From Ornithinimicrobium sp. F0845 (lineage in GTDB: Bacteria; Actinomycetota; Actinomycetes; Actinomycetales; Dermatophilaceae), in contig NZ_JALKAL010000015.1 in assembly GCF_023015765.1 (NCBI RefSeq), positions 1 through 64,000 of the forward strand: a DNA stretch of 64,000 nucleotides, read 5' to 3'. The position numbers were made by a program, and so were the translations under genes. Position 1 is the first letter of the stretch, and each line of letters opens with the position of its first letter. The notes below the pieces were generated by a model, which saw nothing but the letters and a program-made list of their open reading frames with translations, did no database searches and was not told the DNA's origin. Shown piece by piece: positions 1-44,352 of the stretch.

Positions 1-1905
1 GCCACCGGCGAGATCACCGACCTGGTGTCCCTGGCCACCGCCCCGGCCGCGGTGACCGGCCCGGTCGAGCGTGCGATGGCCGCCGGGGAAGCGGGCTGGA
101 CGCTGGTGCGCCGCTACCACCGCGCCTGCGCCGACCTGGACACCACCGACGCTGCCGCCCTGGCCAACGGCTTCTTCGGCCACGACCCGGGCGCCGCGGT
201 CACCGAACGCCTGGACTCCACCGGGCAGCTCACCGGCGGGCCCTGGCCCCACACCGAGTTCAACCGGGCCCTGGACCGGGAAGTGGGCAAGGTCAAGAGC
301 CGCGACCCCGAGCAGGCCGCCAAGGCCCGGGAACGGGCCGCGGCCAACGCCGACGTCCGGCTACGCCTGGACAAGGAAGGCACCGCCACCCTGTCCATCG
401 CCTGCACCCCCACCCAGGGCGCCCTGGTAGCCGACCGCATCGAACGTGCCGCTCGCGCGGCCCGCGCCGCCGGCGAGCCCCGCACCCTGCGACAACTACG
501 CACCGCCTTCGCCACCGCCCTGCTGCTGCACGGCACCCTGGACACCACCGACCTACCCGAAGACCCCGACCGGGTCAGCGTCGAACAGGCCGCGGAACTG
601 TCCAAGATCCTGGGCGCCCTACCCCCCGCCCAGCTCAACGTCATCGTCCCCCTGTCCACCCTGCTCGGCACCACCGGCCCCCACACCACCACCGGGCACG
701 GAGTGGAGGCCGACACCCAGCCCGGGACCATGGACGCCGCCGGTCACCCCCTACCCGCAGCCTTCGCACGCCCACCCGGCTGCACCTGCCCCTGTACCTG
801 TCCCGCCAACAACACCCCACCACCCGATCCCCCACCACCCGATGCCCCACCACCGGATGCCCCACCACCGGATGCCGCACCACCGGATGCCTCACCGCCT
901 GATGGCCCACCACCTGATGCCCGACCGCCGGATGCCCGACCGCCGGGTGGCGACCCGGGCGAGGCGGAGCCGGGACCGGACCCGGCCGGCGGGCAGGAGC
1001 CGGCCGGTGAGGACGGCGTCGCGGAGGTCATCGGCCGGCACAGCCTCTTCCTGTCCGGGCAGGAGGCCCGGATCCTGGCGCTGACCCCGGGCTCGACGCT
1101 GTACCGGTTGGTGACCGACCCGGCCACCGGGGCCCTCATCGAGCGCTCCACCACGGCCTACAAGTTCGACAAGGCGATGCGCGCCCACATCATCGCCGCC
1201 GACGTCTTCTGTCGCATGCCTGGCTGCCTGCGTCCGGCCTCCCGCGCCCAGATCGACCACGTCCAGGAACACGGCACCGCCGGCGGGCACACCTGCATCG
1301 GCAACGGCCAACCCCTGGACGAACCCCACCACGACCTGAAGACCAAGAAACACTGGGACGCGGTCATCCACGCCAACCGCGACGTCACCTGGACCACCCT
1401 GCTCGACCGCATCTACCGCACCAAGACCCACGACTACACCCAGTACACCAAGCTCCTGGCCGCCGCCACCACCGCCATCGACGACGCCATCGCCGGTGGA
1501 CAAGCCCGGGCCGAGGCCATCGACGACGCGATCTACCAGGCCCTGACCTACCGGCCACCCAACGCACCACTACGAGCCGAGGACGACAACCCCTGGAACG
1601 AAGACGCCTTCACCGCCTGGGACATCCTGGACACCACCCACCTCAACCCCACCACCGGACGACGCACCTACCACCCCCACCCCGACACCCTCCACAACGA
1701 GAAACAACGCCACCACCACACCAGCAACACCACACGCCGCAGCGGCGATGACACAGACCCTCGCAGCAGCCAGAACACCCGTCGCCAGAGCCAGAACACC
1801 GGTCGTCGCCGGAGCAAGAACACCGACCCAGACCAGACCAGGCCCAACAACACCACACCGACCACCCCCTGGACCAACGACCCCGACGCCCCACCACCCT
1901 TCTAA
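1..1905 (+). CDS. DUF222 / HNH endonuclease-domain protein (13E12 repeat family type), 5' end outside window
   Basis: The frame is open from base 1, so the N-terminus lies outside the window; an internal GTG at 25 is unlikely to be the real start. The first ~250 visible residues look like the helical DUF222 domain of actinobacterial HNH proteins (13E12 family). A Pro-Asp linker of repeated PPPDA units follows (about residues 270-315), then a domain with the HNH pattern: FCRMPGCLRPASRAQIDH, a GNGQPL segment, and EPHHDLKTKKHW near residues 400-450. The tail (~residues 540-635) is rich in Asn, Thr, Arg and His and looks disordered. These proteins occur in many copies in high-GC actinobacteria; a nuclease activity is inferred from the HNH residues and is not proven for most members. 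Confidence 0.88.
   Translation, partial: ATGEITDLVSLATAPAAVTGPVERAMAAGEAGWTLVRRYHRACADLDTTDAAALANGFFGHDPGAAVTERLDSTGQLTGGPWPHTEFNRALDREVGKVKSRDPEQAAKARERAAANADVRLRLDKEGTATLSIACTPTQGALVADRIERAARAARAAGEPRTLRQLRTAFATALLLHGTLDTTDLPEDPDRVSVEQAAELSKILGALPPAQLNVIVPLSTLLGTTGPHTTTGHGVEADTQPGTMDAAGHPLPAAFARPPGCTCPCTCPANNTPPPDPPPPDAPPPDAPPPDAAPPDASPPDGPPPDARPPDARPPGGDPGEAEPGPDPAGGQEPAGEDGVAEVIGRHSLFLSGQEARILALTPGSTLYRLVTDPATGALIERSTTAYKFDKAMRAHIIAADVFCRMPGCLRPASRAQIDHVQEHGTAGGHTCIGNGQPLDEPHHDLKTKKHWDAVIHANRDVTWTTLLDRIYRTKTHDYTQYTKLLAAATTAIDDAIAGGQARAEAIDDAIYQALTYRPPNAPLRAEDDNPWNEDAFTAWDILDTTHLNPTTGRRTYHPHPDTLHNEKQRHHHTSNTTRRSGDDTDPRSSQNTRRQSQNTGRRRSKNTDPDQTRPNNTTPTTPWTNDPDAPPPF
817..951 (+). repeat. 15-bp tandem repeat encoding the PPPDA linker
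   Basis: About nine imperfect copies of a 15-bp unit close to CCACCACCGGATGCC run in frame inside the DUF222/HNH gene. Each copy encodes Pro-Pro-Pro-Asp-Ala or a variant. The period is a multiple of three, so copy-number change by slippage would alter linker length without breaking the frame. Confidence 0.85.
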
Positions 1906-1971
1906 CAGCGGATCGCGCAGCACGGTCGCCGCCCAGGGTGAGGCCAAGGCGCACGAGCCAGGGGCGATTGA

Positions 1972-2280
1972 TTAGCCGATCGTGCGACGCAGGGCGGTCA
2001 GCTCCGCCGCAAGGGCCACCGGATCCAGGCCAGCCTCGCCGTAGTCGTAGACCATGACGCGCAACTGGTCCATCAGCACAGCCGGACCGAGGTCGGGGAC
2101 CGGAGCACACGGCATACTCTCGGCGGCGGCGACGCGGTCGGCGAGGTCCTGCACCACGTCGCGGACCCGCGGAGACACAGAGAGCGCGTGGTCCAGCGGC
2201 AGCTGCTGCCACCGGCGGACCACGCGCCCCAACTCTGTCCCGATCACCTCGCGCGCCGCGCGCGGGTCGGGGTCGGTCAT
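1972..2280 (-). CDS. conserved hypothetical protein, 102 aa
   Basis: Starts at ATG 2280, five bases after the stop of the Bax inhibitor-1 gene, so the two are probably co-transcribed and translationally coupled; no clear ribosome site precedes the ATG. The product is soluble, leucine- and alanine-rich and helical, acidic overall, with no signal peptide or membrane segment. I do not recognise a family. Extending the frame further upstream would run antisense-like through the neighbour in another phase and gives low-quality sequence, so the short form is preferred. Confidence 0.6.
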   Translation of the reverse strand: MTDPDPRAAREVIGTELGRVVRRWQQLPLDHALSVSPRVRDVVQDLADRVAAAESMPCAPVPDLGPAVLMDQLRVMVYDYGEAGLDPVALAAELTALRRTIG

Positions 2281-2285
2281 GTGCG

Positions 2286-3209
2286 TCAGTCGCTCTGCAG
2301 GATCGCGAACAGGCGCAGGAACTCGATGTAGAGCCACACCAGGCTGGCCACTAGGCCGTGACCCATCAGCCAGGAGTACTTCTCCGGGGCACCAGCCTGG
2401 ATGCCACGGTCCACGGAGTCGAAGTCGACAGCCAGCGAGTAGGACGCCAGCGCCACACCGAGCACGGAGATCAGGATCCCGAGCGGGCCCATGCCGAACA
2501 CGCCCCAGCCGTCGCCGAAGCCCATGAAGCTGGCACCGAGGTTGACCAGCAGGAACACGAGGTAACCCATGGCCATCATGCCGAAGATGCGACGCGACTT
2601 GCTGGTGACCTTGATGAAGCCGACCTTCCAGGCGATGAACATGCCCGCGAAGGTGCCCATCGTGGCGACGACGGCGGTGGTCACGACGCCCGGCCACATG
2701 GCGTTGAAGGTGACGCTCACGGCTCCGAGGAACATGCCCTGCAGCACCGCGTGAGCGACGATCAGCGGGACGTTGACCTTCTTCTGGAAGGCGATGGCAA
2801 AGCTGAGTCCGAGCGAGCCGAACATGCCCAGCAGCCAGACCGGCATCGCCACCTCAGGCTGAGCACCGACGAAGAACCACGCACCGGCGGCCACGACCAG
2901 CACGATCCCGAACAGGGCCAGGGACTTCATGACCACGTCATCGAGCGTCAGACGACCGGTCTCCGCCGGCCCGGCGGGGGCCTGGCGGTACATCTGCTCG
3001 AGCTGCTCGGGGCTCATGGACTCCGAGGCACCGGGGTAGCCCATCGGCATCTGCGGCTGGCCCTGCGGCGGACCATAGCCCTGCGGGGCCCCGTAGCCCT
3101 GCTGGGGGTGCCCCTGAGGGGCGGCCTGGCCCTGCTGCGGTGCCTGATTGAAGCCGGCGTACTGCTGGGCTTCCTTGTCGATACGGTTAAAAACAGGGTT
3201 GGTCGCCAT
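2286..3209 (-). CDS. Bax inhibitor-1/YccA family membrane protein
   Basis: 307 aa. The first ~90 residues are a Gln/Pro/Gly-rich cytoplasmic tail (repeats of QGYGAPQGYG type). A block of about seven hydrophobic segments follows (~residues 100-300) with the layout of the BI-1/YccA family, starting GRLTLDDVVMKSLALFGIVL. A strong Shine-Dalgarno GAGGAGG lies just upstream of ATG 3209. Bacterial BI-1 proteins are inner-membrane proteins linked to calcium/proton leak or FtsH control; the role here is unknown. The gene is divergent to a secreted carboxypeptidase and sits upstream of a 102-aa hypothetical gene. Confidence 0.9.
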   Translation of the reverse strand: MATNPVFNRIDKEAQQYAGFNQAPQQGQAAPQGHPQQGYGAPQGYGPPQGQPQMPMGYPGASESMSPEQLEQMYRQAPAGPAETGRLTLDDVVMKSLALFGIVLVVAAGAWFFVGAQPEVAMPVWLLGMFGSLGLSFAIAFQKKVNVPLIVAHAVLQGMFLGAVSVTFNAMWPGVVTTAVVATMGTFAGMFIAWKVGFIKVTSKSRRIFGMMAMGYLVFLLVNLGASFMGFGDGWGVFGMGPLGILISVLGVALASYSLAVDFDSVDRGIQAGAPEKYSWLMGHGLVASLVWLYIEFLRLFAILQSD

Positions 3210-37005: not shown

Positions 37006-39087
37006 GTGACCCACAACGCCGAGCAGAGCCCGAGCACGACCAGGTCCTGGGGGGCCACGCTGCTCGTGGGGGCCGCGCTCGCCGTGCCCCTCACGCTCAC
37101 CGCACAGGTTGCGGTGGCGGAGGAGGAGCCGCTCGAGTTGGTGGAACAGATCACCGACCCGGTGGGTGCGCTCTCCGGGAGCGAGGGCGAGGTCGAGGCG
37201 GCGATCCAGGACCTGCGGGACGACACGGGACTGCAGCTGTTCGTCGTGTATGTCGATGCGTTCGACCGGGCCAGCGGTGCCGAGTGGTCGGACGAGACCT
37301 ACAACCTCAACGGCTTCGGCGGGGACGACATCCTGCTGTCCGTCGCGATCGACCAGCGTGCCTACGGCCTCTCGGGCAGCTCGGCGATCCCGGAGAACCA
37401 GCTGCAGATCGTGGCCAGTGAGTATGTCGAGCCCCGGCTCGCCGACGACGACTGGGTCGGTGCGTCGGTCGCCGCCACGCGAGGCCTGGCAGAGGTCTTC
37501 CCCGACGGCGTGAACACTCCAGGCGAGGACACCGCGACGCCGGTCCCGGGCGGGTCGTCCCATCAGGGTGAGGGCAGCGGCTTCGGCAGTGCCTTCCCGT
37601 GGTTCTTCGCCGTCCCCGTCGTGGCGGTCGCGGGGTCGAGGCTGATCTCCTCCCTGGGCAACAAGTCCGCGCGCCGGAGCCAGGAGCGGGCGGGTCAGCT
37701 GCCGGCCGAGCCCGGCCAGATCGCCCAGGTGCCCACCCAGGAGCTGCAGCGCCAGGCGGCGGCAGCCCTCGTCGGGCTGGACAACGCCCTGCGGAGCGCC
37801 GAGGAGGAGCTGAGCTTCGCCGAGGCGCAGTTCGGCCAGCAGCGCACGGAGCAGTTCCGCGACGTGCTGACCCAGGCCCGGGCCAGGTCCCAGGAGGCCT
37901 TCCAGATCCGCCAGCAGCTGGACGACGCGGACCACGAGGCCGAGCCCGTCGAGCGCAGCATGCTCGGCCAGATCATCAGCCTGTGCACCGCGGCCCAGAC
38001 CAGCCTGGACGCGCACAGCGCGGAGTTCGCGCAGATGCGGTCGCTGCAGGACACCGTGCCGCAGTTCCTCGAGGAGCTCGCCGGGCGGACGCAGGAGGTG
38101 AGGGGACGGTTGCCCGTCGCCGACCAGCAGATCAACGGCCTCGCCGCGCGCTACCCCGCCCAGGCCCTGGTCACCGTGCGCTCGCACCGCGCGCAGGCGG
38201 AGCGGCTACTGGACAGCGCCCTCGGGTTCGTGGACGCCGGACGGCAGTCGGTCTCCGGCGGGGACCGCCCCTCCGCGGTGGCCGCCGCGCGCGCCGCCGA
38301 GGAGGCTCTCGGACAGGCCGTGCGGTTGCTCGACGCCGTCGGCACGGCAGACAACGACCTCGCCAACGCCAAGGAGGTGCTGGCCCGGGCGATCGCGTCC
38401 CTGACCTCCGACATCCACGACGCCGAGCGCCTGGCCCCGAAGGACACGGTGATCCAGCCGGTCGTCGAGAAGGCCCGGCAGGCGATCGCCCGCGGGCAGA
38501 CCGCGGACACCTCCGGCGACCCGCTGGCCGCCCTCGCCGAGCTCGACGCCACCGAGCACGACCTGGACACCCTGCTGGACCCCCTGCGCGATGCGGAGAG
38601 CGCCCGCGCCAAGACACGCGAGGACTTCCAGTCTCGGGTGAGTCGCGTCGGGGCCCGGTTGCGCAGCATCGACGAGACCATCGCCACCCGGCGCGGTGCC
38701 GTCAACAGCGGTGCCCGCACCAGGATCTCCGAGGCGCTGCGGCTGTTCGACGAGGCCCAGCGCGTCGTGCAGGACAACCCGCGTGAGGCCGCCGGCCTGC
38801 TCACCCGCGCCGAGCAGCTGGGCGAGCAGGCTCTCAGCGAGGCCCAGCAGGACCTCGACCGGTGGGACGGACCGACGGGTGGCGGCACGCGGCGGGGTGG
38901 CATCGACCCCATGTCGGTGATCCTCGGCGGCATCCTCCTCGGCGGCGGCAACCGGCACGGCGGCGGCTGGGGTGGCGGCGGCAGTTGGGGAGGCGGGGGC
39001 GGCGGCTTCGGCGGGGGCGGAGGCTTCGGTGGCGGGGGCGGCTTCGGCGGCGGGGGCGGCTCCACGTCAGTGGGGGGCCGCTTCTGA
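37006..39087 (+). CDS. TPM domain membrane protein with long coiled coil and Gly-rich tail (first of pair)
   Basis: 693 aa; GTG 37006 with AGGAAG upstream. Order: signal/anchor helix (~14-38), extracytoplasmic TPM domain (~40-170; AAIQDLRDDTGLQLFVVYVD, FGGDDILLSVAIDQRAYGLS), a Gly/Ser linker, second membrane helix (~195-215, FPWFFAVPVVAVAGS), then ~420 residues of heptad-rich coiled coil with internal similarity (EEELSFAEAQFGQQRTEQFR), and a Gly/Phe tail (GGGGFGGGGGFGG, ~645-693). The TPM fold occurs in phosphatase-like and photosystem-repair proteins. The layout, TPM outside and a long cytoplasmic coiled coil, and the adjacent pspA gene suggest an envelope-stress role; the mechanism is unknown. 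Confidence 0.85.
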   Translation: MTHNAEQSPSTTRSWGATLLVGAALAVPLTLTAQVAVAEEEPLELVEQITDPVGALSGSEGEVEAAIQDLRDDTGLQLFVVYVDAFDRASGAEWSDETYNLNGFGGDDILLSVAIDQRAYGLSGSSAIPENQLQIVASEYVEPRLADDDWVGASVAATRGLAEVFPDGVNTPGEDTATPVPGGSSHQGEGSGFGSAFPWFFAVPVVAVAGSRLISSLGNKSARRSQERAGQLPAEPGQIAQVPTQELQRQAAAALVGLDNALRSAEEELSFAEAQFGQQRTEQFRDVLTQARARSQEAFQIRQQLDDADHEAEPVERSMLGQIISLCTAAQTSLDAHSAEFAQMRSLQDTVPQFLEELAGRTQEVRGRLPVADQQINGLAARYPAQALVTVRSHRAQAERLLDSALGFVDAGRQSVSGGDRPSAVAAARAAEEALGQAVRLLDAVGTADNDLANAKEVLARAIASLTSDIHDAERLAPKDTVIQPVVEKARQAIARGQTADTSGDPLAALAELDATEHDLDTLLDPLRDAESARAKTREDFQSRVSRVGARLRSIDETIATRRGAVNSGARTRISEALRLFDEAQRVVQDNPREAAGLLTRAEQLGEQALSEAQQDLDRWDGPTGGGTRRGGIDPMSVILGGILLGGGNRHGGGWGGGGSWGGGGGGFGGGGGFGGGGGFGGGGGSTSVGGRF

Positions 39088-39233
39088 GACGCCGACACCC
39101 CTGACGTGCAGAACACCGCGCAAGCACACGGAACCAACGGGCGGCTCCGGCCGTCCATACGTAGGACCCGACACCACGACATACTGTCTAAGGGCCTGTT
39201 GCACACCGGTCCCGATGAAAGGACACTCAGACC

Positions 39234-39950
39234 ATGACGCAGAAGCAGACCATCCTGGGCCGGATCAGCCAGCTCGCCAAGGCCAACATCAACTCCCTCC
39301 TGGACCGTGCCGAGGACCCGGAGAAGATGCTCGACCAGCTCGTGCGCGACTACACCAACTCGATCGCCGAGGCCGAGGAGGCCGTGGCGCAGACCATCGC
39401 CAACGTGCGGATGGCCGAGGCCGACCTGCGCAGCGACGAGGAGGCCGCGCAGGAGTGGGGCCGCAAGGCCGCCGCCGCCTCGCGCAAGGCCGAGGAGCTG
39501 CGCGCCGGTGGGGACGCCGCCGGCGCCGACAAGTTCGACAACCTGGCCAAGATCGCGCTGGGCCGCCAGATCCAGCACGAGGGCGACGTCAGCGCCGCCC
39601 GCCCCGCGATCGAGCAGCAGAACGTCACCGTCGACAAGCTCAAGGAGGGCCTGGTCAGCATGAAGACCAAGCTCGAGGAGCTGAAGTCCAAGCGCGGCAC
39701 CCTCGTGGCGCGCGCCCGCTCGGTGGAGGCGCAGTCCAAGGTCAACGACGCCATGCGCTCCATCGACGTGATGGACCCGACCAGCGAGCTGGGCCGCTTC
39801 GAGGACAAGATCCGCCGCGAGGAGGCCCTCGTGGCCGGCCGCGCGGAGGCCCACGCCACCACCCTCGAGGACCAGTTCGACCAGCTCGAGGACCACAGCC
39901 ACGACGCCGAGATCGAGGCCCGCCTCGCGGCGCTGAAGAACCAGGGCTGA
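39234..39950 (+). CDS. pspA: PspA/IM30 family protein
   Basis: 238 aa, almost entirely helical. The N-terminal amphipathic region TILGRISQLAKANINSLLDR and EDPEKMLDQLVRDYTNSIAE are the PspA/Vipp1 signature, followed by coiled coils. These proteins are bacterial ESCRT-III homologues that polymerise on membranes and protect against proton leakage. AAAGGA precedes ATG 39234. The gene lies between two TPM genes on the same strand, ~146 bp from each, with a terminator hairpin downstream. Confidence 0.95.
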   Translation: MTQKQTILGRISQLAKANINSLLDRAEDPEKMLDQLVRDYTNSIAEAEEAVAQTIANVRMAEADLRSDEEAAQEWGRKAAAASRKAEELRAGGDAAGADKFDNLAKIALGRQIQHEGDVSAARPAIEQQNVTVDKLKEGLVSMKTKLEELKSKRGTLVARARSVEAQSKVNDAMRSIDVMDPTSELGRFEDKIRREEALVAGRAEAHATTLEDQFDQLEDHSHDAEIEARLAALKNQG

Positions 39951-39991
39951 CCCGACGTCAGCCGGGCCGGCACCGCCGGCCAGCAGCATCC

Positions 39992-40023
39992 GCGGACCCG
40001 CCGGACACGTCCGGCGGGTCCGC
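39992..40023 (+). terminator. hairpin downstream of pspA
   Basis: GCGGACCCGCCGGA / TCCGGCGGGTCCGC, a perfect 14-bp stem with loop CACG, 41 bases after the pspA stop. No T-run. It may separate or attenuate transcription into the second TPM gene. Confidence 0.75.
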
Positions 40024-40096
40024 CGCTGCGAGGTGGTCCGCCACGGGCGCTCGCGGCACAGGGGACCGACACCACCCTCGGGGGAAGGACCACACC

Positions 40097-42097
40097 ATGC
40101 GCACCTCCTCGCACCACCACGCCACGCCCCGCTCGAGCCACCGTTCTGACTCGACCTCGGGGGTCAGCGCGTCGGTCGCCGCGCCCGGCTGGCCGCTCGC
40201 CCGGTGGGGAGCCCTGCTCGCCGCGGTCGCGGTGACCTTCCTGCTCACCCTCGCCCCGGCCTACGGGTCCGACCCGTTCAACCTGCCGGGCGAGCTGGTC
40301 GACGAGGTGGGGGCGATCGACGACGAGACCGCTGTCCGCGACGCGCAGGAGCGGCTGCACGAGGAGACCGGGCTGCAGCTCTACGTGGTCTTCGTCGACG
40401 ACTTCGGCGGGCTCAGCGGCTGGGACTGGGCGGAGCAGACGGCCGACGCGTCGCACCTGGGCGACGAGGACCTGCTCCTGGCCGTGGCCACCGGTGAGCG
40501 TTCCTGGGGCCTGTCGGTGTCCGAGGCCGCCGGCATCTCGGTGGACCAGGAGGACCGGGTCGTCGAGCGCATCGAGACCGAGCTGCGCGACAGCGACTGG
40601 GACGGGGCCGCGATGGCTGCGGCGAACGGGTTCATCGACGTCAGGGCCGAGGGGGCGAACGCCGGCCGCAACGCCATCGGGATCGGTCTGGGCGTCGCGG
40701 CCATCGGGGGCGCCGTCATCACCGTGCCACGGGTGAGGCGGCGCCTGGCCGACCGCCGGCGCAGGGAGGATGAGGCCGAGGAGCTCGCGGCCACCTCCGA
40801 GCAGATCGGTGGCCAGCTGGTCGCCCTCGACAACGCCCTGGCCTCCTCGGAGACCGAGCTGCAGTATGCCGAGGCAGAGTTCGCGCCAGAGCTCACCCGC
40901 CCCTTCCGCGAGGCGGTGGAGGCCTCGCGGGCCGAGGCGGTGGAGGCCTACCGGGTGCGTGAGCAGATCGGGGAGGTCTCCGAGGTGACCGCCTACAACA
41001 GCACGATGGACCGGTTCCGGGCGCTGCAGGAGCTCATCGCCCGCGCCGACACGCGCCTGGACGAGCACACGGAGGCGTTCAACGACCTGCGGCGCCTGTC
41101 CGACCGCGCTCCTGAGCGCATCGAGGAGCTCGCCGCCGGGATCGCCGCGGCGACCCGCACCCTGGACGACACCGAGCCGTTGCTGGCCGCCCGCACAGAT
41201 CTGCGCGGTGGGCAGCGGGAGCAGTTCGGCGACGTCATCGCCGGCTGCCGGGCACTCCTCGGGCAGGGCGCAGCGTCGGTGGAGCTCGCGCGGGAGCGGT
41301 TGCGGACCGAGGGTCCGGAGGACGCGGTCCTGCCGATCAAGGCGGCCGAGCAGGCGCTGTCCGAGGTCACCGCTCAGACCGACCTGCTCGCCGACGTCGA
41401 CGGGCTCGTGGCGAGCTGGAACCAGTTGCTGGAGGAGGCCGGCGCCTCCCTGATGGGGGACCTGGCCGATGCCGAGCGCCTCGCGCCGCAGGATGCAGCC
41501 GTCGGTGCCCTCGTGACGACGGCGCGCACCGCACTGGGCCGGGTCCCGGACGCTGCGGAGGACCCGGTCGACCTGGCCGCCGAGCTCGGGGAGATCGAGC
41601 GGGCCTTGGACGCGGCGCTGGCCGGCTACCGCGCCGAGGAGGAGAAGCACCTCAAGGCGGTCGGCCGCGCCGAGAGCCAGCAGCGGGTCGCAGAGGCCCG
41701 GGTCAAGTTCATGGACAGCGACCTGCAGCGGGTCTGGTCGTTGACTCCGGAGTCGCAGCGTCGCAGCGCCCAGGCGGCACGCGACCTGCTGGCCCAGGGT
41801 GTCGCGCTCGTGCAGTCCGACCCCGAGACCGCCGAGCGCACCCTGCAGCAGGCCGCCAGCCGAGCTGACGCAGTGGCCCGCGCGCTGCCCACCGTCAGCG
41901 TGCAGACCGGCGGCGGGTCGGGTTGGGGTGGCTCGGGCTGGGGTGGCTCCGGCAGTTCCCGCAGCAGCTTCAGCAGCTCACGGAGCTCGTCGCGCTCGCG
42001 CAGCTCCTCTCGGCGGTCGAGCTCGCGTCGATCGAGTTCCCGTCGGTCGAGCTCCCGCCGCTCGAGCTCACGTCGTTCCCGCGGCGGCCGCTTCTGA
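40097..42097 (+). CDS. TPM domain membrane protein with long coiled coil and Ser/Arg-repeat tail (second of pair)
   Basis: 666 aa; ATG 40097 with GGGGAAGGA upstream. Layout parallels the first TPM protein: N-terminal hydrophobic segment (~33-55), TPM domain (~58-185; RLHEETGLQLYVVFVDDFGG, LGDEDLLLAVATGERSWGLS), second membrane helix (~195-215), and ~400 residues of coiled coil (LVALDNALASSETELQYAEA). The tail differs: Gly/Trp-Gly-Ser then RSSSR repeats ending RGGRF, strongly basic. The two TPM proteins are clearly paralogues (matching LVALDNAL/LVGLDNAL and DLADAERLAPQD/DIHDAERLAPKD blocks). Role is inferred to be linked to PspA. Confidence 0.85.
   Translation: MRTSSHHHATPRSSHRSDSTSGVSASVAAPGWPLARWGALLAAVAVTFLLTLAPAYGSDPFNLPGELVDEVGAIDDETAVRDAQERLHEETGLQLYVVFVDDFGGLSGWDWAEQTADASHLGDEDLLLAVATGERSWGLSVSEAAGISVDQEDRVVERIETELRDSDWDGAAMAAANGFIDVRAEGANAGRNAIGIGLGVAAIGGAVITVPRVRRRLADRRRREDEAEELAATSEQIGGQLVALDNALASSETELQYAEAEFAPELTRPFREAVEASRAEAVEAYRVREQIGEVSEVTAYNSTMDRFRALQELIARADTRLDEHTEAFNDLRRLSDRAPERIEELAAGIAAATRTLDDTEPLLAARTDLRGGQREQFGDVIAGCRALLGQGAASVELARERLRTEGPEDAVLPIKAAEQALSEVTAQTDLLADVDGLVASWNQLLEEAGASLMGDLADAERLAPQDAAVGALVTTARTALGRVPDAAEDPVDLAAELGEIERALDAALAGYRAEEEKHLKAVGRAESQQRVAEARVKFMDSDLQRVWSLTPESQRRSAQAARDLLAQGVALVQSDPETAERTLQQAASRADAVARALPTVSVQTGGGSGWGGSGWGGSGSSRSSFSSSRSSSRSRSSSRRSSSRRSSSRRSSSRRSSSRRSRGGRF
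41999..42073 (+). repeat. 15-bp repeats encoding RSSSR units
   Basis: Five in-frame 15-bp units of the type CGGTCGAGCTCCCGC each encode Arg-Ser-Ser-Ser-Arg at the C-terminus of the second TPM protein. Third-position differences between units show they have been kept as protein repeats and not only as DNA copies. Confidence 0.8.
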
Positions 42098-42232: not shown

Positions 42233-42287
42233 AGCCACTGCCGTCGCAAAGCGCCCTCAGACGACAGCCGCCCGCGGCGCCCTCAGC

Positions 42288-42642
42288 TCAGCGACCGTGG
42301 AACCGGCCCTGTGTCGCTTCAAGCCCCGTGTGCACCAGTTCGGTCACCGCGTCGGCGCCGTCACCGATGAGCAGCTCGACGTCGACCCGGTCCCGGGAGG
42401 GGAAGTCGGAGTGCACATAATCCGCGGGGTCCTGGCGCCCCGGCGGACGCCCGATGCCCAGCCACACCCGCAGGTAGTCCTTGGTCCCCAGGGAACCCGT
42501 TGCGGCCACCCCTCACCCCCACCACGCTTGAGCTTGATCGCACCGAAGTCGATGTCCAGCTCGTCATGCACCACCACGACCTGCTCCAACGGCACCTAGT
42601 AGAACCGCACCAGCGCAGCCACCGGGCCACCGGAGACGTTCA
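42288..42642 (-). pseudogene. decayed duplicate of the pth 3' two-thirds
   Basis: This segment aligns along its length with codons ~75-196 of the intact pth at 43762-44352, including the gene end and TGA. Defects: a TAG replaces the AAG lysine codon in FYKVPLEQ (near 42598), a deletion/frameshift removes the GGHNGLRSI catalytic region around 42490-42515, and the N-terminal ~75 codons are missing. By eye ~90% of the shared bases match. It cannot be functional. Similarity stops at 42642, a few tens of bases before the toxin-antitoxin genes. Confidence 0.9.
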
Positions 42643-42668: not shown

Positions 42669-42686
42669 GATAACTCATGAGTTATC
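42669..42686. promoter_or_regulatory. 18-bp perfect palindrome, likely autoregulatory operator of the TA pair
   Basis: GATAACTCATGAGTTATC is a perfect palindrome in otherwise GC-rich DNA. It overlaps the -10-like TATCAT (42683-42688), which ends 6 bases before GTG 42695. An XRE repressor encoded right there could bind it and shut its own promoter. Confidence 0.75.
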
Positions 42687-42694
42687 ATCGACGT

Positions 42695-43150
42695 GTGCCC
42701 GACTACGGCGACATCGTGAGGACGAGGCGCGAGTTGCTCGGGCTGTCGCAGCGCGCACTCGCCGGGCGGGTCGGCGTGACACAGCCGATGATCAGCGCGA
42801 TCGAGGCCGGTACGCGGACCCCGACGGAGCCGGTTCGGGCAGCGATCGATGCCACCCTTGCGATCCGACCGTCAACAGCACTGCACGCCCGTCTCGGTGA
42901 GGTCCGAGCCATGGTTCGGCGGCACGGCGGCCTGCACGCCACGTTGATCGGCTCGGCCGCCCGCGGCCAGGACACGATCGGTTCAGACCTCGACCTCTTG
43001 GTCGAGTTCGAGTCCGACCGCGACATCGTTGACCTGCTGGCACTCGAGGCCGACCTGGCCGAGCTCCTGACCGTCCCGGTGGATATCGTCTCGGCCGGCT
43101 CCACCGGTCCGGTCGTCGAGGACCTGCAACGAGGGGCCGTCCCGCTGTGA
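42695..43150 (+). CDS. XRE helix-turn-helix fused to MntA-like nucleotidyltransferase (antitoxin)
   Basis: 151 aa from GTG 42695. The N-terminal ~60 residues are an XRE HTH (LGLSQRALAGRVGVTQPMIS, AIEAGTRTPTEPVR). Residues ~80-151 are a minimal nucleotidyltransferase with LIGSAARGQDTIGSDLDLLV, the GSx10DxD metal site. In MntA-HepT systems this enzyme AMPylates and neutralises the HEPN toxin. ATG 42677 lies inside the palindromic operator and would require a start upstream of the likely transcript start, so GTG 42695 (leaderless) is preferred. It overlaps hepT by 4 bases (GTGA). Confidence 0.85.
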   Translation: MPDYGDIVRTRRELLGLSQRALAGRVGVTQPMISAIEAGTRTPTEPVRAAIDATLAIRPSTALHARLGEVRAMVRRHGGLHATLIGSAARGQDTIGSDLDLLVEFESDRDIVDLLALEADLAELLTVPVDIVSAGSTGPVVEDLQRGAVPL

Positions 43151-43491
43151 CCGATGCCCGGCTCGCTCGCCGACTTTCCGATCTGACCGCGTTCGCGAGG
43201 GAGGCAGAGCACGTCGTTGCGCAGGGGCGGGACAGGTACCTCGCTGACGATGCTGATGGCGCGCTGCTCCGCAACGCGGGCGAGCGGGTCCTGATCAAGG
43301 TGGCAACAGTCGTCGAGAAGCTGCCGGACTCGTTCCGGCAATCGCACCCGAACGTGCCATGGGTCGCGATCATGCGGATGCGCAACCTCGTGGCCCACCA
43401 CTACGACAAGGTGAATGCCGACCTCATGTGGACCGCGCTCACCACACGAATCCCTGGTCTCGCCCGTGAGCTCGGGCTGACCGAGGACTGA
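43147..43491 (+). CDS. hepT: HepT-like HEPN ribonuclease toxin (DUF86)
   Basis: 114 aa, all-helical. It carries the HEPN motif RNLVAHHY, matching Rx4HxY, in which the arginine and histidine form the RNase site and the tyrosine is the residue AMPylated in known HepT proteins. The context MRMRNLVAHHYDKVNADLMW is typical of DUF86. GTG 43147 overlaps the antitoxin stop by 4 bases. Expected action: cleavage of tRNA or mRNA when not neutralised. No other genes accompany the pair. Confidence 0.85.
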   Translation: MTDARLARRLSDLTAFAREAEHVVAQGRDRYLADDADGALLRNAGERVLIKVATVVEKLPDSFRQSHPNVPWVAIMRMRNLVAHHYDKVNADLMWTALTTRIPGLARELGLTED

Positions 43492-43618: not shown

Positions 43619-43761
43619 GACCGACCCCACGGCATACATCGAGGCAGGCCCCCCGGCTAAGCGAAGTGCATCCCGATACCGCTAGAGGCGCTGCACCCAC
43701 CCCGTGAGAAGCCGCCAACGCCAAACCCCGACGAGGCCAGCGCCGGTGGCCGGAGCAACAG

Positions 43762-44352
43762 TCAGCGGCTGTGGAACCGGCCCTGCGTCGTCTCGAGGCC
43801 CGTGTGCACCAGGTCGGTCACCGCGTCGGCGCCGTCGCCGATGAGCAGCTCGACGTCGACCCGGTCGCGGGAGGGGAAGTCGGAGAGCACATAGTCGGCC
43901 GGGTCCTGGCGCCCCGGCGGACGCCCGATGCCCAGCCGCACCCGCAGGTAGTCCTTGGTGCCCAGGGACTGGCTGATCGAGCGCAGCCCGTTGTGGCCGC
44001 CCTCGCCGCCACCGCGCTTGAGCTTGATCGCACCGAAGTCGATGTCCAGCTCGTCGTGCACGACGATGACCTGCTCCAACGGCACCTTGTAGAACCGCAC
44101 CAGGGCTGCGACCGGACCACCAGAGACGTTCATGTAGGTCATCGGCTGGGCCAGGATCGCGCGCGGACCGGGGGCGCCCCCGGGCATCGTGCCGAGGCGG
44201 ACCTCACTGACCCACGCCCGGCCCTTGTGCTCCTTGGCCGAGGCTCCCGCCTGCTCAGCAAGCTCCGCGATCACCATCGCGCCGATGTTGTGCCGGTGCC
44301 CGGCATACTTCGGCCCGGGGTTGCCCAGGCCCACCACCAACCAGGGGTCCAT
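43762..44352 (-). CDS. pth: peptidyl-tRNA hydrolase
   Basis: 196 aa, normal length. Active-site features: [20 protein letters not shown] (Asn and catalytic His), [30 protein letters not shown] and [14 protein letters not shown]. It releases peptides from prematurely dropped peptidyl-tRNA and is usually essential. GAGGAGC lies before ATG 44352. rplY is upstream on the same strand, 186 bases away with a terminator between. The 3' two-thirds are duplicated as a dead copy at 42288-42642. Confidence 0.97.

Follow-up and report, generated by a model that had tools for sequence, protein, structure and literature searches.

How PspA is delivered to the right membrane site is an open question in most phyla. 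In a 64,000-nucleotide stretch of Ornithinimicrobium sp. F0845 (contig NZ_JALKAL010000015.1; hereafter the window), the pspA gene lies between two genes for long membrane proteins that carry a TPM domain, TPM1 upstream and TPM2 downstream (Table 1). The original prediction, made from the sequence alone, was that such TPM proteins could serve as membrane anchors or nucleators for PspA. We therefore asked which parts of this arrangement are conserved and what they suggest about function. Our main reading, to which we assign a probability of about 0.6, is that TPM1 is the membrane anchor or receptor of a two-gene actinobacterial PspA system, in a role like that of YdjH in Bacillus subtilis.

Table 1. 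Features of the TPM1–pspA–TPM2 locus; positions are those of the window
Feature	Position	Strand	Description	Evidence
TPM1	37006..39087	+	693 aa, GTG start; signal/anchor and outside TPM domain, then TM helix, inside helical rod and Gly-rich tail with GGRF end	ORF, Pfam, AF2
TPM1, TPM domain (PF04536)	37150..37494	+		Profile match, 59.7 bits
TPM1, second membrane helix	37612..37686	+	Residues about 203–227, then basic residues	Hydropathy, AF2, charge
TPM1, cytoplasmic helical rod	37735..38868	+	Residues 244–621	AF2, pLDDT mostly >90
TPM1, C-terminal GGRF	39073..39084	+	Predicted beta strand, residues 687–692	
pspA	39234..39950	+	238 aa, PspA/IM30, bacterial ESCRT-III relative	PF04012
Inverted repeat 3' of pspA	39992..40023	+	15 bp	−35.8 kcal/mol, 45-nt folding window
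TPM2	40097..42097	+	666 aa, ATG start, Ser/Arg-rich tail, RGGRF end, type B	ORF, Pfam, AF2, tree
TPM2, TPM domain	40301..40639	+		Profile match, 57.3 bits
TPM2, helical rod	40706..41884	+	Residues 204–596, part of membrane helix included	AF2
TPM2, C-terminal RGGRF	42080..42094	+	Predicted beta strand, residues 659–665	

In this genome of about 71% GC, the three genes are bordered by the divergent mfd on one side and by pth on the other. A partial second copy of pth (42284–42642, minus strand; 86.7% identity over 376 columns to the intact copy at 43759–44132) sits between TPM2 and a toxin–antitoxin-like pair encoding an HTH-nucleotidyltransferase and HepT (42677–43491, plus strand), with the intact pth on the far side of that pair. 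The arrangement resembles a small mobile module with part of pth duplicated on its two sides.

Both long frames matched the TPM profile PF04536, TPM1 with an E-value of 7e-15 (55.6–59.7 bits) and TPM2 with 4e-14 (53.2–57.3 bits; curated cut-off, 22.1), and the two proteins are 29% identical. PspA matched PF04012 (PspA_IM30) over residues 7–236 (E 7e-38) as well as Vipp1/PspA chains in the PDB (best E 5e-21), and its 79 bits fell under the 243-bit cut-off of the NCBIfam PspA equivalog. Profile searches of the whole genome returned two TPM proteins (TPM1 and TPM2 themselves), one PspA, four Band_7 (SPFH) genes on other contigs (C1 and C12), none of them beside pspA, and zero matches to LemA, and hence no LemA–TPM pairing.

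We obtained AF2 models for TPM1 and TPM2 (mean pLDDT 81.7 and 85.0; pTM 0.55 and 0.58), and in both a single TPM domain is followed by a rod of about 380 residues, mostly at pLDDT >90, and by a low-confidence tail. Foldseek matched the TPM fold of both models to 2kpt, 5anp and 3pvh/3ptj with a probability of 1.00, and the closest solved match in both sequence and structure was 2kpt, the TPM domain of C. glutamicum cg2496. The fold also matched a subunit of the mycobacterial III2-IV2 respiratory supercomplex (6adq_J, 8hcr_J, 8ovc_a and 6hwh_O) with probabilities of 0.99–1.00 and weak E-values. Frames, Pfam matches, models and charge distribution thus agree with the original prediction that pspA is flanked by paralogous proteins, each with an anchor, an outside TPM domain, a second helix and an inside coil. 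The tails had been described as unrelated; their composition indeed differs, but they are not wholly unrelated, because both terminate in GGRF. In TPM1 and its relatives, the Gly-rich tail is preceded by a short conserved hydrophobic stretch, LGGIL (TPM1 residues about 637–650), of which L640, G641 and G642 are conserved at ≥90% in the TPM1 family, and which is not visible in TPM2.

We examined membrane topology by charge in 131 long TPM proteins chosen for a terminal F. In 130 of them, the coil-side flank of the second hydrophobic helix had more Lys and Arg than the other flank; the rod was accordingly taken to lie inside, and therefore in the same compartment as PspA. A third membrane helix that would carry the tail back outside was not supported, as a hydropathy of 1.6 beyond position TPM+300 was reached by 5 of the 131 proteins.

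Comparison of gene order among genomes, proposed as a check in the original prediction, revealed that Actinomycetes, along with some other classes of their phylum, conserve the TPM1–pspA arrangement. TPM1 is followed by pspA in 24/24 genomes of the window's genus, four of which contain broken-looking frames: TPM1 in L064 and L066 and its tail in L070 and L082, with pspA affected as well in L070. Among 80 named loci, which are the best 80 of 553 relatives and therefore biased toward near relatives, and which come partly from the same 24 genomes, pspA was located downstream of TPM1 in 71 (that of L188 is cut by the contig end); of the other nine, seven end at a contig edge and two (L185 and L200) lack pspA. 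The intergenic gap is short, with a median of 85 bp and ≤150 bp in 107 of the 111 distinct loci with a gap under 1500 bp. On these grounds, TPM1–pspA is a real, conserved, operon-like pair.

We also surveyed a class sample of 236 genomes, in which a TPM was counted as long when its frame spanned 450 aa or more and the Trp-ending G069 was left out. Outside family f18, a same-strand pspA was found no more than about 2.5 kb downstream in 27 of the 35 long-TPM genomes among the matches listed. Also among the matches listed, G217, G137 and G259 carried a lower-scoring pspA 3–5 kb downstream of the long TPM (two of these TPMs, whose sequences were fetched, end in SSRR rather than Phe); in G110, G148 and G238, TPM and pspA were on separate contigs, with the TPM near a contig end or start; G051 had its PspA on another contig, and no PspA was found in G050. 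Family f18, which we infer to be Mycobacteriaceae-like, had a linked pspA in 0 of 17 long-TPM genomes, the gene being located elsewhere (among the matches listed). Conversely, G229, G139 and G261 carried a pspA scoring like the window's type and no TPM match among the matches listed.

In other classes, five of the six Phe-ending loci detected by the TPM profile combined the pair with the Phe end (L232, L233, L235, L236 and L237), and the sixth (L231) had no pspA nearby. Three distant long TPMs missed by the profiles (L239, L241 and L242) end in Phe, and three further long TPMs (L234, L238 and L240) end in Trp; no pspA was found nearby in either set. Two large plasmids of Pseudarthrobacter and Arthrobacter (L251 and L255) encode a PspA about 58–61% identical to that of the window, with no TPM gene annotated within 4 kb and a gene for a TM2-domain protein nearby.

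We considered gene fusion as proof of contact between TPM and PspA. In one Sporichthyaceae MAG, an in-frame read-through from TPM into PspA (L173/L103, same contig, 102–3011) yields a 969-aa frame with TTA at the would-be TPM stop; as a single MAG is involved, it was given little weight. A second candidate (L136) was discarded, its frame bridging a run of Ns.

The second TPM gene is conserved less widely. A downstream TPM was present in 10/24 genomes of the genus and is thus optional even there, and among the 80 named loci (the best 80 of 553 relatives) it occurred in L122 and L124 only. A tree of 52 rows placed all 37 TPM1 sequences in one clade (99/99), with the downstream TPMs outside it, divided into two types (A and B) and a short form without a rod next to B. 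TPM2 is a member of an older paralogue set seen in the genus only. Since G013 carries both A and B, the simplest reading would be an ancestral TPM1–pspA–A–B cluster with later losses, of which the window retains B; the root of the tree is unsure because of long branches. TPM2 is also the fastest-changing of the three proteins, at 76% identity to L122, compared with 83% for TPM1 and 97% for PspA.

The two TPM genes of the window may also be transcribed separately. The structure following pspA in the window was compared with shuffled sequences (110 nt after pspA; mean −27.0, lowest −40.0 kcal/mol), and its energy is therefore not beyond every shuffle; the strongest structure in the TPM1–pspA gap reached just −18.1 kcal/mol. 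The hairpin after pspA was stronger than all 30 shuffles in 12 of 16 loci, the exceptions being the window, L068, L147 and L152, and it was present in the type B loci L067, L069, L071, L084 and G013. The type A TPM of L063, L068, L072 and L082 begins at or beside the pspA stop, so the stretch tested for hairpins overlaps the TPM gene there, and this TPM is probably on the same transcript as pspA. The hairpin thus suggests transcription separate from TPM1–pspA for the window's TPM2 alone. A scan for a sigma-70-like promoter found no site and is uninformative at about 71% GC. A conserved TPM–PspA–TPM sandwich is not supported, given a second TPM that was seen in only part of one genus, lies outside the TPM1 clade and follows a hairpin in the window; the symmetry is a genus-level elaboration.

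We further analyzed the C-terminal residues. Among 127 PspA-linked, rod-bearing, closed TPM frames, assembled without selection on the terminal residue, 120 end in Phe, mostly as GGRF; Arg precedes the Phe in 103 and Gly occupies position −3 in 117 of these. The seven exceptions comprise shifted-looking tails (L070 and L082), the read-through L103, the N-gap artefact L136, L166, whose end is altered, and the divergent L119 and L120. When frames with 60–300 residues after the TPM domain were added, Phe was terminal in 120/132, the extra non-Phe frames being four rod-less downstream TPMs ending in LPR or LPA and L066, which is cut short. Of the 120 Phe-ending frames, 99 carry a Gly-rich tail and 21 a Ser/Arg-rich one; the end is therefore kept while the tail changes. 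Four complete f18 frames end in GGGGRF (L116–L118) or GGRH (L054). Primers printed in the accessible part of PMC8581546 indicate that B. subtilis YdjH ends in SRGSF and YdjG in MGGGF.

TPMs linked to LemA, counted where 60 or more residues follow the TPM domain, ended in Trp in 26 of 29 cases, with one Phe (L230) and two other residues; E. coli YgcG ends in GRW. Where neither pspA nor LemA was found, there were 11 Phe, 8 Trp and 4 other ends (n = 23). The presence of PspA in the genome was rejected as the reason for Phe versus Trp, as Trp-ending long TPMs occur in the PspA-bearing genomes G416, G436 and G309; these ends, together with the LemA-linked Phe of L230, indicate that the choice follows gene family and neighbour, not genome content.

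In the AF2 models, the terminal strand stands out from its surroundings: mean pLDDT was 92 for the last three residues of TPM1 and 70 for the preceding ten, and 88 for the last six of TPM2 and 52 for the preceding ten, after 50–60 residues mostly at pLDDT <50 in both models. The only strands that could pair with it belong to the TPM domain or its immediate surroundings, and the charge rule places that domain across the membrane from the tail. Docking of the end strand on the TPM domain of TPM1 itself would therefore conflict with a topology of TPM outside and tail inside. A speculative proposal, which we regard as doubtful, is that the last residues of TPM proteins form a partner-specific docking tag, in which a short beta strand closing in Phe (PspA-type) or Trp (LemA-type), with its carboxylate free and borne on a fast-changing flexible tail, would couple membrane TPMs to a helical-bundle partner or to each other and thereby nucleate PspA assembly, across Actinomycetota and Bacillota.

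These observations are consistent with an anchor function for TPM1. Its TPM domain would face outward and sense membrane stress, one helix would cross the membrane, and the rod of about 380 residues with its flexible tail would reach into the cytoplasm, where it would bind PspA and recruit or nucleate its polymers on the stressed membrane, in the way that YdjH works with YdjG and YdjI in B. subtilis. TPM2 would be a lineage-specific extra copy, possibly on its own transcript in the window, that may vary the sensing side. In favor of the anchor function are the adjacency and tight gap of TPM1 and pspA, the position of the hairpin after pspA rather than between the two genes, the inside rod (130/131) and the B. 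subtilis precedent, including the terminal Phe common to YdjH and YdjG. According to the text available of PMC8581546, YdjH binds PspA and YdjI in two-hybrid assays, and neither PspA nor YdjI forms foci once ydjG or ydjH is deleted; in the available text of Ravi et al. 2024 (PMC11237479), YdjH, a TPM protein with a low-complexity region or long coiled coil, is the conserved PspA partner in Firmicutes. Against it stand Phe-ending long TPMs with no pspA nearby, pspA genes with no TPM, and f18, in which pspA is never linked (0/17 among the matches listed) and yet three of four ends are GGRF; TPM may therefore act without PspA or in trans. In addition, the operon has no YdjI-like SPFH gene, and the predicted contact between TPM1 and PspA would thus be direct or made via another protein.

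The separation of TPM from pspA in f18 (among the matches listed) would also fit a different role, in which TPM1 serves membrane complexes as a chaperone or assembly factor and PspA is co-transcribed through a shared envelope-stress response with no direct contact. TPM folds are present in photosystem assembly factors, the fold resembles the mycobacterial III2-IV2 supercomplex subunit (with weak E-values), and a chaperone-like role was proposed by Ravi et al. in the accessible part of PMC11237479. Such a role leaves unexplained both the long inside rod and, from the available text of PMC8581546, the two-hybrid contact between YdjH and PspA, and we consider it unlikely. A scaffold for cell division appears less probable still: the available text of PMC3989709 lists rv2345/cg2496 under zipA, as possible orthologues stated to be not validated, and EzrA (4uxv) was the best-ranked natural Foldseek match of the TPM1 coil, with a probability of 0.69 and a non-significant E-value of 0.58. 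However, EzrA was absent among the 50 matches listed for TPM2, and the conserved neighbour is pspA and no division gene. That the TPM domain is an active phosphatase or ATPase working extracellularly, the inside part being no more than a regulator, is suggested by the Pfam family name and by a report, known from a cited title, of ATPase/ADPase activity for a TPM domain. We judge it very improbable; by eye, GLEEKVTDA of E. coli YgcG corresponds to GLSGSSAIPEN in TPM1 and GLSVSEAAGIS in TPM2.

Of the arrangement first proposed, a link between TPM1 and PspA is thus supported by the median gap of 85 bp, the conservation and the YdjH precedent, and a conserved sandwich is not. The accompanying view that a membrane scaffold for PspA is not well described was mistaken for Firmicutes, where the YdjH–PspA partnership is published, as the accessible parts of PMC8581546 and PMC11237479 attest. 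As far as we have seen, the actinobacterial two-gene version lacking an SPFH gene and its C-terminal signature are new: in the open-licence literature searched, we found no description of either the actinobacterial TPM–pspA pair or the terminal motif, the supplements or web application of PMC11237479 may list the pair, and the term 'TPM' does not occur in the accessible text of the survey PMC9239133. A minimal anchor–PspA unit, widespread in Actinomycetes and with a nearly invariant terminal residue to mutate, would make the question of PspA targeting directly testable, and the Corynebacteriales homologues listed as possible ZipA gain a different candidate function.

Several known systems share features with this pair. 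Rv2345/cg2496 of Corynebacteriales provides the best match to the window's TPM domain, and the f18 loci, taken as Mycobacteriaceae-like, encode proteins of the same length as TPM1, most of them with its GGRF end (3/4), with pspA not adjacent. The mycobacterial clgR–pspA–pspM–pspN operon and the actinobacterial PspA–PspAA–two-component operons likewise give PspA a membrane or signalling partner, and have no TPM protein as described in the available text of PMC11237479. LemA–TPM (YgcG) proteins resemble TPM1 in their outside TPM domain, membrane helix or helices, Gly-rich tail and aromatic last residue, but differ in having LemA as partner, no long rod and mostly a Trp end. The B. subtilis system is arranged as pspA–ydjG–ydjH–ydjI and includes YdjI, an SPFH protein, and YdjG, a zinc-ribbon protein (described without a TPM domain in the accessible part of the PSP survey PMC11237479), whereas the actinobacterial unit consists of two genes, with TPM first and no SPFH gene. 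Both nevertheless co-encode PspA with a membrane-integral TPM protein, and YdjH, like TPM1, has Phe at its C-terminus.
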